From Aneurinibacillus sp. Ricciae_BoGa-3 (GTDB taxonomy: Bacteria; Bacillota; Bacilli; Aneurinibacillales; Aneurinibacillaceae): a stretch of 64,000 bases of DNA. The notes beneath the pieces are model-generated. The model worked only from the letters and a program-made list of their open reading frames with translations. It did not search any database and was not told where the DNA came from. This document shows positions 38,785 through 43,235 of this stretch, piece after piece (within the stretch, counting starts at the first letter, position 1; every line of letters starts with the position of its first letter). Location of the stretch: the NCBI RefSeq assembly GCF_028421645.1, contig NZ_CP116887.1:808001-872000 (forward strand), read 5' to 3'. The translations under genes and the position numbers were made by a program.

Positions 38785-38816
38785 AGCCGTTCTACCCTGG
38801 AACGGCTTTTTCTTTT
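38785..38816 (+). terminator. terminator upstream of the HssRS-like operon
   Basis: AGCCGTTC pairs with GAACGGCT around TACCCTG, followed by TTTTCTTTT. It lies inside a long plus-strand frame (38589-38957), which argues against that frame being a gene. Confidence 0.85.
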
Positions 38817-38865: not shown

Positions 38866-38900
38866 GTTCAGTTCATATTGAGTTCACAAAGCTGGTTTAT
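38866..38900 (+). promoter_or_regulatory. HssR-type direct-repeat operator, site 1
   Basis: GTTCA then GTTCATATT (38871-38879), 2 nt, GTTCACAAA (38882-38890), 3 nt, GGTTTAT. The known HssR site is GTTCATATT-N2-GTTCATATT. Site 2 at 41671 has identical core, spacing and GGTTTAT. It lies 59 nt upstream of the first gene of the operon that encodes the response regulator, so autoregulation is likely. Confidence 0.75.
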
Positions 38901-38958
38901 TGTGGCCATAGAATCAGTAATCCAACACCAACAATTATGATTGTGAGGAGTGGTTGAA

Positions 38959-39558
38959 ATGGGTAAATGGCTCATATTTGATAAATGGGTAATCGCGTCC
39001 ATTCTTTATGTGGCGATAGTGATCGGTGGTTTTGCCGTGTATGACCAGTTTTTTGCGGATAAAACCCAGGCTGTATCTGCGGCGAAACATGAACATGCAA
39101 GCGACGATTCAGCACATAAGCAGACTAGTGAGGTAAATGCATTTGTTCAAGCTGATCCAGACAAAATAAAGATTTTCTTAAAAGATAAGATAGGAAATCC
39201 AGCTAACGATTTAGAATTAAATCACGAGAAGCTTAAGCCTGACAACAATTTTATTCAGAATATAGACGGAGAAACAGTGAAACTAAATCTGAGTTCTACC
39301 CAGGCCAACGAACCCGTAACGTTAACATTCAATTTAGATAAAACCAATCTATCTCCTTATTTGGGAGCGATGGGGCATGTAGTCATTCTTGATGAAAACG
39401 CCCAAGACTTTCTTCATGTTCATCCAGCCAATGATAAGGAACCGATTTTTGAAACGCAGTTCAAGCAGCCTGGTATATATAAAATATGGGCTGAATTCAA
39501 ACAAAATGGAAAAGTAAGAGCGTTCCCGTTTGTAGTCGAAATAAAAGGGGAGAATTAA
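38959..39558 (+). CDS. membrane-anchored protein with MGH...HVH putative metal site
   Basis: 199 residues. N-terminal helix (about 9-27) anchors it, with the rest outside; a His-rich spacer (KHEHASDDSAH) follows. The C-terminal beta-sandwich carries YLGAMGH (134-140) and FLHVHP (H153, H155), a pattern found in extracellular domains of copper or heavy-metal proteins. GAGGAG lies 8 nt before ATG 38959. It is the first gene of the operon and is separated from the response regulator by 2 nt. It may bind or buffer the ligand sensed by the kinase. Function inferred. Confidence 0.75.
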   Translation: MGKWLIFDKWVIASILYVAIVIGGFAVYDQFFADKTQAVSAAKHEHASDDSAHKQTSEVNAFVQADPDKIKIFLKDKIGNPANDLELNHEKLKPDNNFIQNIDGETVKLNLSSTQANEPVTLTFNLDKTNLSPYLGAMGHVVILDENAQDFLHVHPANDKEPIFETQFKQPGIYKIWAEFKQNGKVRAFPFVVEIKGEN

Positions 39559-39560
39559 AT

Positions 39561-40235
39561 TTGCCGAAGGTACTAGTGGTGGATGATGAAGCCCACATTC
39601 GTGAGTTAGTTTCATTGTACTTGAAAGATGAAGGGTTTGACATCGTTGAAAAATCGAATGGAGCGGATGCGTTGCACTATGCGGAGAATCATTCTTTTGA
39701 TTTGGCGATTTTGGATATTATGATGCCACACATGGATGGCTGGGTTTTATGCACAAAACTCCGGGAGCTGGGGGATTTCCCCATTTTGATGATTACCGCG
39801 AAGGGGCAGGCGCAGGATAGAATTCGTGGATTTAGGCTTGGAACGGATGATTATTTGGTAAAGCCATTTGATCCGGTGGAGCTTGTTCTTCGTGTGAAGG
39901 CTCTGCTAAAGCGGTATCGCATTTCTACTTCCAATATCGTTAAACTCGGAAACATATCGTTAGACCGCTCGAGTTATCAGGTTCTATACGAGAACGGCAA
40001 AACGATGACACTTCCTATGAAAGAATTCGAATTGCTGTACAAACTGGGCAGCTATTCCGGGCAGTTGTTTACCCGGGATAATCTCATTGAGCAAATATGG
40101 GGCATTGATTATGAAGGTGACGAGCGGACGGTGGATGTTCACATTAAGCGGCTTAGAGAGCGATTTGCTGGGTTCGAGTCCGATTTCCGCATTGTCACCA
40201 TCCGCGGGCTTGGTTATCGGTTGGAGGTGCAATAA
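39561..40235 (+). CDS. HssR-like OmpR-family response regulator
   Basis: 224 residues. Receiver domain with acidic pair VVDDE, phospho-acceptor Asp52 (LDIMMP), Thr (MITAKG) and Lys (DDYLVKPF), then the winged helix with WGIDYEGDERTVDVHIKRLR. The text tracks HssR of Staphylococcus and Bacillus, including the YEGDERTVDVHIKRLR end of the DNA-binding domain. Start is TTG 39561 with AAAGGGGAG upstream. It should bind the GTTCATATT repeats at 38866 and 41662. The kinase follows with no gap. Confidence 0.9.
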   Translation: MPKVLVVDDEAHIRELVSLYLKDEGFDIVEKSNGADALHYAENHSFDLAILDIMMPHMDGWVLCTKLRELGDFPILMITAKGQAQDRIRGFRLGTDDYLVKPFDPVELVLRVKALLKRYRISTSNIVKLGNISLDRSSYQVLYENGKTMTLPMKEFELLYKLGSYSGQLFTRDNLIEQIWGIDYEGDERTVDVHIKRLRERFAGFESDFRIVTIRGLGYRLEVQ

Positions 40236-40236
40236 C

Positions 40237-41598
40237 ATTAAGTCGCTATATACTCGTGTTGTATTCATATTTGTCGGCATTGTCATGTTGAGTCTGTTCA
40301 CCGCTGTTATGGTTAGTTCTTATCTGTATCAGGATCGAATTAAAAGTTTGGTAGAAGAAGTTCTAATGACGAACGCTAATAAAATGATACAAACCTATCA
40401 ATCGACACCATCTGCTGATTTGATACCGTTTATGCAAAACGTGTCCGGAATTTCCCATACCCTTCTTCAACTTTACAATAAGGATGGCAAGCCCATCCTT
40501 GCCCAAAAAGAGTGGCCCATGCAGGTTGACCCTCATGATATTAAGCAGGTGCTCGCCGGTGAAAAGGTTCGCCATTTCGATAACGTAGACCTTGCTCATT
40601 TGCACATGCCTCCACTACCTTTAGTCGGCCTTCCAATTCAGGTAGATGGGCAGCCTTACGCGTTATTTGTCACCATGAAGCAAAATCCCGTGGAGAATGA
40701 AATCATGAATTCCATTCATGTTACGTACATGATTATTCTATTTCTCGGCAGTTTGCTGATTGTCGTTGCTGCGCGTTATATCGTAAATCCCATTGTGCGT
40801 TTGACAGAAGCAACTAAGAGGATGGCGAAGGGAACATTCGATTTGGAGCTGCCTACCAAACGCAAGGATGAAATTGGTGTCTTAACGGTTAGTTTTAACG
40901 AAATGGCGAAGGAGCTATCTAAGCTGGATCGAATGCGGCAGGATTTCGTTTCGAACGTCTCACATGAAATTCAATCGCCTTTAACTTCCATTCGAGGGTT
41001 TAGTAAGGCACTACAGCAGAAGAAAATGAGCGAGGAGAGCCGTCACCATTATTTGACCATCATCGAAAAGGAGAGCGAGAGGTTATCCCGATTAAGCCAA
41101 AATTTGCTTCGGCTGTCCTATCTGCAGCAGGAGAATCATCCGTTAAAGGTAAGTACGTATCGACTGGATGAGCAGCTGCGCAAGGTTGTCATTGCGCTTG
41201 AGCCTCAATGGACACAGAAAGAAATCGAAATCGATCTTCAACTTGAGCCTCTTACTGTTCATGCAGATGAAGACCAATTCTATCAGGTATGGACCAATTT
41301 ACTGAGTAATAGCATCAAATTCACGCCAGCACACGGTAAGATTGCTATTGAGGCTTTCATGAAAGATAATCAGAACATCGTGTCCATCACGGATAATGGT
41401 ATCGGGATTCCTGAAGAAGAACGGGCGGATATTTTTAAGCCGTTCCATAAAGTGGATAAAGCGCGCGACCCTTCCGTTAAGGGCAACGGGCTCGGCCTAT
41501 CAATCGTTAAAAAAATTATTGATATTCATAAAGGAGATATTCGAGTATCAGGAAAACTGGGAACAGGTGCAACTTTCGAAGTGACACTGCTGCAGTGA
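40237..41598 (+). CDS. HssS-like sensor histidine kinase (probable ATT start)
   Basis: 453 residues from ATT 40237. TM1 about 8-30, extracellular sensor about 31-160, TM2 about 162-180, HAMP to about 233 (KDEIGVLTVSFNEMAKEL), phospho-acceptor His243 in VSHEIQSPLTS, and an ATPase with N box NLLSNSIKFTP, ITDNGIGIP and GLGLSIVKKI. GGAGGTG at 40223-40229 is exactly 7 nt before ATT AAG TCG; no ATG or GTG lies in frame nearby, and TTG 40210 has no RBS. AUU initiation is rare and notable. It pairs with the regulator just upstream. Confidence 0.87.
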   Translation: MKSLYTRVVFIFVGIVMLSLFTAVMVSSYLYQDRIKSLVEEVLMTNANKMIQTYQSTPSADLIPFMQNVSGISHTLLQLYNKDGKPILAQKEWPMQVDPHDIKQVLAGEKVRHFDNVDLAHLHMPPLPLVGLPIQVDGQPYALFVTMKQNPVENEIMNSIHVTYMIILFLGSLLIVVAARYIVNPIVRLTEATKRMAKGTFDLELPTKRKDEIGVLTVSFNEMAKELSKLDRMRQDFVSNVSHEIQSPLTSIRGFSKALQQKKMSEESRHHYLTIIEKESERLSRLSQNLLRLSYLQQENHPLKVSTYRLDEQLRKVVIALEPQWTQKEIEIDLQLEPLTVHADEDQFYQVWTNLLSNSIKFTPAHGKIAIEAFMKDNQNIVSITDNGIGIPEEERADIFKPFHKVDKARDPSVKGNGLGLSIVKKIIDIHKGDIRVSGKLGTGATFEVTLLQ

Positions 41599-41628
41599 TC
41601 CAGGTATCTTGAATCGACAATAATCATC

Positions 41629-41657
41629 GAAATACCGCCATATGGCGGTATTTTTTA
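41629..41657 (+). terminator. terminator of the HssRS-like operon
   Basis: AATACCGCCA-TA-TGGCGGTATT, a near-perfect palindrome followed by TTTTAAA. Confidence 0.9.
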
Positions 41658-41661
41658 AATC

Positions 41662-41700
41662 GTTCATTTCGTTCATATTGCGTTCACAAAGAGGGTTTAT
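41662..41700 (+). promoter_or_regulatory. HssR-type direct-repeat operator, site 2
   Basis: GTTCATTTC, then GTTCATATT (41671-41679), 2 nt, GTTCACAAA (41682-41690), 3 nt, GGTTTAT (41694-41700). Three half-sites in a row. The core matches site 1 base for base, apart from the spacers. It lies 156 nt upstream of the DJ-1/PfpI gene. Confidence 0.75.
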
Positions 41701-41855
41701 ATTTTCCTTATCGAGGGTGATTATTAAAAATGGTTTATAGGGGGACACAGTGGTTGTGACATTGGTTACAACCGGATGGTAGTCTACGTATTTTTAAAAG
41801 TTTAATACCTTACCAAGGTATAGTAAAAAGAAAATAATTGGAGGAGGAAAATGAA

Positions 41856-43235
41856 ATGAAAAAATTATTGCTACGTTTGGTTGTTTATGTGCTAAGTTTT
41901 GTTGTGTTTGTGGGAGGGATTGGGATGCTCGGGCTTATGCGTTCACAGAATGATTTTTACGGGACAGTCCGCCATGAGCCAGTTCCTTACCTACAAGGTG
42001 TTCATCCACCAAAGTATGATGCAACTAAACCTACAGTAGCCGTTCTACTGGCGAATGTGGACACTGAGGTATTTGATTTTATGATTCCATACGATTTGTT
42101 TTCTAGAACAAACGCTTTTAATGTGTTTGCCGTTGCCCCAGACCATGGTGTAAAGTCGTTATCGGGTGGATTGGATGTGGTACCGCATTACTCTTATAAA
42201 GAATTAGATAAGTTATTAGGTAAAAGCCCCGACATAATCGTGGTCCCTTACATGCCGATCGTTGATGAAAAGAAATATCAACCAACTCGTGAATGGATTA
42301 AACAACATTCCAGCAGTAAAACCACTCTCCTAAGTATTTGTGGTGGATCAGGGAATCTAGCCGACGCAGGCTTGTTAAAAGGTAAATCAGCCGCCACACA
42401 CTGGCAAGCGATCCCTGGAATAAGCTGGCAATATCCGGACACTCATTGGGAAGAGAACCTAAGGTATGTTCACGAAGGAAACATCATAACTTCCGCCGGC
42501 CAAACTGCAGGTATCGATGCCGTACTGTACATGATAGCTCAAAAACTAGGAGAACCCATAGCGGCAAAAATAGCGAAAGAAATTAATTATCCTTCGTACC
42601 ACTTCGTCCAAAATCCAAAAGTAGACCCTTTCCACATGGACATAAAATTTTCGACATATGTACTAAACAATGCATTCCATTGGAATAAGAAACAAATGGG
42701 CGTACTACTGTATAACGGCATGGATGAAATATCATTATCTTCTATATTTGACAGCTACGCAGACACCGGAACAACTCAAGTCTTGACCGTCTCGAGCTCA
42801 GATGCTCCAGTGGTGACAAAACATCATCTTAATATAGTGGCTAGGCATCAAATAGCGAATGCTCCAAAATTGGATAAAATGATCGTTCCAGGTGGCAACG
42901 CAAAAACACTCGCTGCAGCAGACGTAAAACTTTGGAGTGAAAAAGGCAATGCTAATGAGACTCTCCTCATTCATAGCGACTCACCAAACAGATATGCATT
43001 TGAAGCACCATTGGAAGACTTAGCTAAGCAAGAGGACCTTCTAACTGCCAAGCATGCTGTCAAACGACTCGAGTATCGTGCAAATCATATCCATCTTGAA
43101 GGCAAACCGTTCCCGCTAGAAACATACAGCAATATGCTTTTAACCGGTTTACTAACTTTGTTGATAGCTTTCTTTATTGACAGACGGTTCATTATGAAGA
43201 AAACCATATTCAAATCGCATAAACAAGCTAGTTAA
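41856..43235 (+). CDS. membrane-tethered double DJ-1/PfpI-domain protein
   Basis: 459 residues: TM helix about 8-28, first DJ-1/PfpI domain about 58-240 with nucleophile-elbow Cys162 (SICGGSGNLADAGLL), second related domain about 255-400 without an obvious elbow Cys (KMIVPGGNAKTL), and a C-terminal TM helix about 425-443. Both domains would face outside. DJ-1 proteins act as proteases, glyoxalases, or transcription regulators (AraC N-domains). RBS GGAGGAGG precedes ATG 41856. The operator matches that of the HssRS-like operon, so it is the likely target of that system. Confidence 0.83.
   Translation: MKKLLLRLVVYVLSFVVFVGGIGMLGLMRSQNDFYGTVRHEPVPYLQGVHPPKYDATKPTVAVLLANVDTEVFDFMIPYDLFSRTNAFNVFAVAPDHGVKSLSGGLDVVPHYSYKELDKLLGKSPDIIVVPYMPIVDEKKYQPTREWIKQHSSSKTTLLSICGGSGNLADAGLLKGKSAATHWQAIPGISWQYPDTHWEENLRYVHEGNIITSAGQTAGIDAVLYMIAQKLGEPIAAKIAKEINYPSYHFVQNPKVDPFHMDIKFSTYVLNNAFHWNKKQMGVLLYNGMDEISLSSIFDSYADTGTTQVLTVSSSDAPVVTKHHLNIVARHQIANAPKLDKMIVPGGNAKTLAAADVKLWSEKGNANETLLIHSDSPNRYAFEAPLEDLAKQEDLLTAKHAVKRLEYRANHIHLEGKPFPLETYSNMLLTGLLTLLIAFFIDRRFIMKKTIFKSHKQAS

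Follow-up and report, generated by a model that had tools for sequence, protein, structure and literature searches.

The window analysed here, 64,000 nucleotides of the Aneurinibacillus sp. Ricciae_BoGa-3 genome (assembly GCF_028421645.1, contig NZ_CP116887.1, positions 808,001 to 872,000 of the forward strand), contains an HssRS-like two-component system, a membrane-anchored HVHP protein, a membrane-anchored tandem DJ-1/PfpI protein and two copies of one operator. Our reading is that these genes form an autoregulated stress regulon of a third branch of the HssR/HitR family, with a copper or envelope/redox trigger and with the HVHP and DJ-1 proteins as outputs, and we put its probability at about 0.6. 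Sequence comparison gives good support to the operator and its conservation, to the link with the response regulator and to the family placement. Activation, autoregulation, the copper/redox signal, metal binding by the HVHP protein and enzyme activity of the DJ-1 protein are what we infer beyond that, and copper or envelope stress is our best guess for the signal, held with moderate confidence.

Heme export is the main role for which HssR-type regulators are known. The branch considered here is well separated and would control quite different proteins, and in Aneurinibacillus, Brevibacillus, Ammoniphilus and other Bacilli it has a conserved operator of its own. A search of the open-access literature returned nothing relevant on the window two-component system or on the tandem membrane DJ-1 family. 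The regulon is real and conserved, and it is apparently undescribed.

Operator and promoter layout

All features described below lie on the plus strand of the window. An earlier note on this DNA had described two units with the same operator and identical spacing, and indeed GTTCATATTNNGTTCACAAA was present at 38871-38890 and at 41671-41690 with 0 mismatches each. Operator 1 (38871..38890) is the direct repeat GTTCATATT-GA-GTTCACAAA, followed by the -10-like hexamer TATTGT at 38898-38903. Operator 2 (41671..41690) is the direct repeat GTTCATATT-GC-GTTCACAAA, and its -10-like hexamer TATATT at 41698-41703 is equally spaced from the repeat. The four genes were found as described: operator 1 heads an operon for the HVHP protein, the response regulator and the sensor histidine kinase, and operator 2 heads the tandem DJ-1 gene. 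Just upstream of each operator is a strong hairpin plus T-run. The first (38785..38807, -14.0 kcal/mol) is the likely terminator of the preceding unit, and the second, located after the kinase gene (41629..41654, -16.1 kcal/mol, z -5.05), is the likely terminator between both units. Therefore, the operon is probably transcribed separately from the DJ-1 gene, and the promoters of the two units match. An Rfam search gave only sub-threshold chance matches, which did not support a structured leader from a known family.

Throughout the 5.70 Mb genome, the 20-mer GTTCATATT-N2-GTTCACAAA has exactly two perfect copies, both in the window, whereas 0.0004 copies per genome would be expected from base composition. 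Thus the repeat is not spread over many unrelated promoters. Three other matches occur in the genome, each needing 3 mismatches, and the shuffled window gave a mean of 0.07 matches at up to 3 mismatches. The third-best genomic match, upstream of zwf (L003), lacked the -10 spacing and was taken to be a chance match.

For conservation, 399 genomes sampled from the class were surveyed, and 35 of them carry DJ-1 homologs. Homologs were also found in named genomes of Brevibacillus, Paenibacillus, Aneurinibacillus, Neobacillus, Cohnella, Ammoniphilus and Tumebacillus. Relatives show that the operator is conserved. Across the 35 distinct sites from the fetched loci and the window, the consensus is GTTCATATTGAGTTCACAAAGC-G-TTTATAGT and the spacing does not vary: the first repeat unit is followed by 2 nt, the second unit, 7 nt and TATAGT. 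The genes led by the operator were HVHP-regulator-kinase, DJ-1, c7-DJ-1 (c7, a membrane protein of 110 aa, has a CC motif), HVHP-DJ-1 and a tyrosine phosphatase-DJ-1 pair, and further one ABC-2 transporter and two PAF-acetylhydrolase-like genes. The latter encode a secreted lipase in two genomes (L110 3061-4353 and L114 4087-5376), which possibly acts on damaged membrane lipids.

A degenerate operator pattern gave 45 matches in the 35 DJ-1-bearing genomes, compared with 1 for a reversed control pattern. Orthologs of the response regulator were defined by at least 74% identity, the next group being clearly apart at 64% and below. The operator was present in 12 of the 13 genomes with an ortholog versus 4 of the 22 without one (Fisher p=4e-5). 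Because the presence of the operator tracks the regulator ortholog across genomes, the operator most likely belongs to the window-type regulator.

In the mechanism that we propose, the sensor would detect its signal, and the phosphorylated regulator would bind the 9-bp direct repeat with its 2-nt gap. The repeat covers about -39 to -20 of promoters with a -10 and no -35 element, and it would stand in for the -35 as in class II OmpR-type activation. The regulator would then activate its own operon, headed by the membrane-anchored HVHP protein, and the separate unit for the membrane-anchored, outward-facing tandem DJ-1/PfpI protein.

The window regulator shares 94% identity with its A. tyrosinisolvens counterpart, while the window DJ-1 protein has its closest relatives in Neobacillus (82%) and reaches only 67-68% with the A. 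tyrosinisolvens copies. One genome of the same genus (G009) has neither the regulator ortholog nor the DJ-1 gene. With such differing affinities and the lack of both genes in this genome, the four-gene module is accessory and mosaic. Two Brevibacillus panacihumi genomes (L046 and L047) carry triple tandem DJ-1 genes divergent from the HVHP-regulator-kinase operon, with copies 54-66% identical to the window DJ-1 protein.

Family placement and the heme question

By comparison and tree, the response regulator (39561..40235, TTG start) is an OmpR-family protein of the HssR-like subfamily. In a maximum-likelihood tree of 38 response regulators, in which HitR itself was not included, it grouped with HssR (clade support 100/96), which bears out the earlier note on this point. 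The DJ-1-associated regulators form a subclade (100/99) apart from the hrtAB-linked HssR proteins, and their nearest sisters are ABC-transporter-linked and other regulators (97/91). The ABC-transporter-linked sisters are HitR-like and may be HitR. These comparisons suggested that the window two-component system is most likely a third branch of the HssR/HitR family.

The repeats used by HssR and by HitR are published as near-identical (PMC3968170), and the window system shares several features with HssRS-HrtAB, the heme-response system of Staphylococcus, Bacillus and Listeria. Their regulators and the window regulator share one well-supported clade, and the identity to staphylococcal HssR is 44-48%. 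When staphylococcal HssRS-hrtAB loci were fetched via their own HssR box, the hrtAB promoters showed the same repeat and gap, and again 7 nt separated the repeat from the -10, which agrees with the HssR-type operator claimed before. The first half-site, the 2-nt gap and this distance are identical to those of the window operator, and the sensor likewise has two transmembrane segments and an extracytoplasmic domain alignable with that of HssS. The half-site, the promoter layout, the regulator identity and the sensor alignment speak for a true heme-sensing HssRS with alternative outputs in place of HrtAB. Nevertheless, the systems differ in several respects. The HssR-type repeat is GTTCATATT-N2-GTTCATATT, whereas the second half-site in the window is the variant GTTCACAAA. 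The window system has HVHP and DJ-1 membrane proteins as putative outputs instead of HrtAB, and its own operator would autoregulate the two-component system.

Activation of HssS depends on Arg94, Arg163, Phe25 and Phe128 (PMC11237747). In 14 sensor orthologs, the window included, the R94 position holds W, G or T or is gapped, the R163 position holds M or E, and only one sequence retains F128; the alignment of the sensor loop is uncertain, so the complete absence of both arginines is a strong result and not a final one. R94 was present in all six hrt-linked HssS proteins compared. No HrtB ortholog was found in the genome (best match 24% over 138 aa, E=1e-4), hence no hrtAB pair stands elsewhere under the operator. 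Since both the HrtB ortholog and the heme-anchoring arginines are missing, and the regulator falls in a separate subclade, heme sensing is not supported and was rejected. Heme is unlikely as the signal, and a heme-sensing HssRS with other outputs is very improbable.

The kinase (40237..41598) has two transmembrane segments and an extracytoplasmic domain about 140 residues long. Its ATT start (40237-40239) comes directly after the regulator stop codon, with GGAGGTG upstream. ATT stands at the kinase start in 12 of 14 ortholog rows and overlaps with the regulator stop (ATTAA) in several. This conserved rare start suggests low, coupled translation of the kinase.

Copper or envelope stress as the probable signal

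The HVHP protein (38959..39558, 199 aa) is membrane-anchored and distantly YtkA-like, with MGH at residue 138 and HVH at residue 153, as had been noted. Its relatives have two beta-sandwich domains (predicted local distance difference test, pLDDT, of 77 for the model, good within domains), and the conserved His sets of these domains are H102/H107/H120/H122 and H226/H239/H241 in the numbering of the Aneurinibacillus danicus protein (L078). The window protein gave no match to Pfam YtkA (PF13115), and the best relative reached 20.3 bits (E=0.0009), under the cut-off of 25.9. A fold search returned only generic Ig/FnIII matches (Z up to about 9) and was uninformative on function. YtkA/CtaK of B. 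subtilis, a distant analogue, serves copper assembly (PMC13344008). Like YtkA/CtaK of CuA assembly and the YtkA domain of the copper importer YcnJ, the HVHP proteins are small, membrane-anchored, extracytoplasmic and tied to copper. In contrast to them, they fall under the Pfam cut-off, have paired GH...HxHP motifs and occur in copper-resistance operons and in the window regulon. In A. tyrosinisolvens (L042) the HVHP gene is split into two frames.

The gene neighbourhood of plasmid-borne HVHP relatives was sampled at eight loci, two of them without a nearby copper gene. On the S. haemolyticus plasmid pBNF01A (L283, 4810-5466), the HVHP gene comes directly after csoR-copA-copZ. The context is CopZ-CopA-multicopper oxidase (MCO) in Mesobacillus, a CopY-CopZ-CopA-...-MCO-CueP operon in Exiguobacterium and P-ATPase/heavy-metal genes in Hymenobacter; further relatives stand near a copper-binding four-helix protein and near a multicopper oxidase. 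In one genome (L058), the HVHP part and the end of a CopA-like ATPase are encoded by a single open frame. Among staphylococcal plasmids, about 100 have an HVHP relative that is annotated 'hypothetical' and gains a plausible copper role from these contexts.

Copper genes also adjoin the DJ-1 gene. CsoR was found within 5 kb of it in 5 of 32 genomes versus 0.27 expected (p=1e-5), or p=0.003 when three cases from one family count once (3 independent events). CsoR or CopA adjoins the DJ-1 gene in several genera, and two Paenibacillus loci (L254 and L229) have the orders DJ-1-CsoR-CopA-HVHP, and HVHP-CopA beside DJ-1. The suggestion of a heme-, metal- or oxidant-response module thus gained support in its metal part, through the copper genes beside the HVHP family and DJ-1, and is not supported in its heme part. 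In the proposed regulon, the cell envelope would most likely be under stress from copper, or under redox stress of the copper type, when the system is triggered, and the HVHP protein would be a copper binder on the outer side of the membrane.

Several observations weigh against this proposal. The sensor domain contains no conserved Cys/His/Met set fit for a metal site, and such a site, which had been considered, is not supported. Compared with the A. danicus protein, the window HVHP protein is shortened by a clean in-frame deletion of about 85 residues that removes the core of the first domain, so that half of the putative metal-binding part is missing. More than 50 of the 79 DJ-1 loci adjoin neither a window-type two-component system nor copper genes, and copper may be only one of several DJ-1 contexts. 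The lipase, ABC-2 transporter and tyrosine phosphatase genes under the operator point to general membrane damage.

These points lead to a second explanation, a general envelope-damage response like HitRS of Bacillus anthracis, in which copper would be one of many inducers and the DJ-1, lipase-like and HVHP proteins would repair or shield the membrane. HitRS answers envelope-active compounds and uses a near-identical repeat (PMC3968170), and as in the window HitPQRS has an HssR-like regulator and an operator heading the operon that contains the two-component system. The nearest sister regulators, ABC-transporter-linked and HitR-like, and the sensor without conserved metal ligands fit this explanation as well. 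However, it leaves the recurrent copper neighbours of DJ-1 and HVHP unexplained. HitS is moreover an intramembrane sensor with only a short extracellular loop (PMC7790381) and an ABC transporter as output, whereas the window sensor has an HssS-like extracytoplasmic domain and its operon has no ABC genes. We therefore judge a purely HitRS-like role less likely than the copper reading.

The tandem DJ-1/PfpI protein

The DJ-1/PfpI superfamily is normally cytosolic, and the physiological substrates of its members are disputed. The window protein (41856..43235, 459 aa) has N- and C-terminal transmembrane helices, and its domains are predicted outside. Both helices and a positively charged C-tail are conserved in 43 of 43 homologs, and on this basis both DJ-1 domains are predicted to lie outside the membrane. 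Such a membrane-anchored family under a defined inducible promoter would offer a direct genetic route to its role.

Domain 1 (residues 56-266, 42021..42653) matches Pfam PF01965 with 83.6 bits against a cut-off of 26.6. Its Asp74 and Cys162 are invariant in 43-47 homolog sequences. The AlphaFold model, built on an alignment of 43 homologs, has a pLDDT of 91.9, and the structures of isocyanide hydratase, 3mgk and human DJ-1 match its domain 1 with Z of 21-24. Cys162 is located at the nucleophile elbow, and manual alignment by the FDFMIP/LDLTGP motif placed Asp74 with the isocyanide hydratase-type acid. Domain 2 (about residues 277-410, 42684..43085) is degenerate: H373, E387, Q392, R404, E406 and R408 are invariant, and no Cys is present. 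The tandem, membrane-bound architecture reported earlier was therefore recovered, except that the second domain has no nucleophile cysteine. The fold and the Asp/Glu + Cys pair are common to isocyanide hydratase/InhA and human DJ-1 (PARK7), whereas the tandem arrangement, the degenerate second domain, the transmembrane helix at both ends, the predicted extracytoplasmic location and the identity of about 25% set the window protein apart. The residue after the Cys is Gly in place of the Thr of isonitrile (isocyanide) hydratase.

We suppose that domain 1, by its Cys162/Asp74 pair, would act at the cell surface on a reactive product and either remove or repair it. A more specific version, in which a third HssR-family system employs this surface enzyme on a copper/redox damage product or on copper-binding small molecules such as isonitriles, with the HVHP protein as its copper-binding partner, is offered only tentatively. 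Since DJ-1/PfpI proteins include methylglyoxalases (PMC11987610) and the superfamily acid/Cys pair is invariant here, the regulon could instead answer reactive electrophiles of the methylglyoxal type or oxidants, with the DJ-1 protein as a surface glyoxalase and an incidental metal link. We consider this improbable. The Gly after Cys162 leaves no PfpI-type Cys-His pair, the neighbourhoods show no sign of carbonyl metabolism, and methylglyoxal arises in the cytosol while the DJ-1 protein is predicted outside.

A phage origin of the DJ-1 gene was dropped because no relative was found in viral contigs. At 11 of the 79 DJ-1 loci (L208, L223, L227, L235 and others), the gene adjoins another two-component system, formed by a 218-aa NarL-type response regulator and a PAS-domain kinase, an apparent second wiring of the DJ-1 output. 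Because most DJ-1 genes stand alone and these 11 adjoin a NarL-type system, the DJ-1 protein probably has a part in envelope stresses of more than one kind. Genes for an ABC ATPase, an 828-aa FtsX-like permease and an HVHP lipoprotein also recur beside DJ-1 (L214, L241, L208 and L229).

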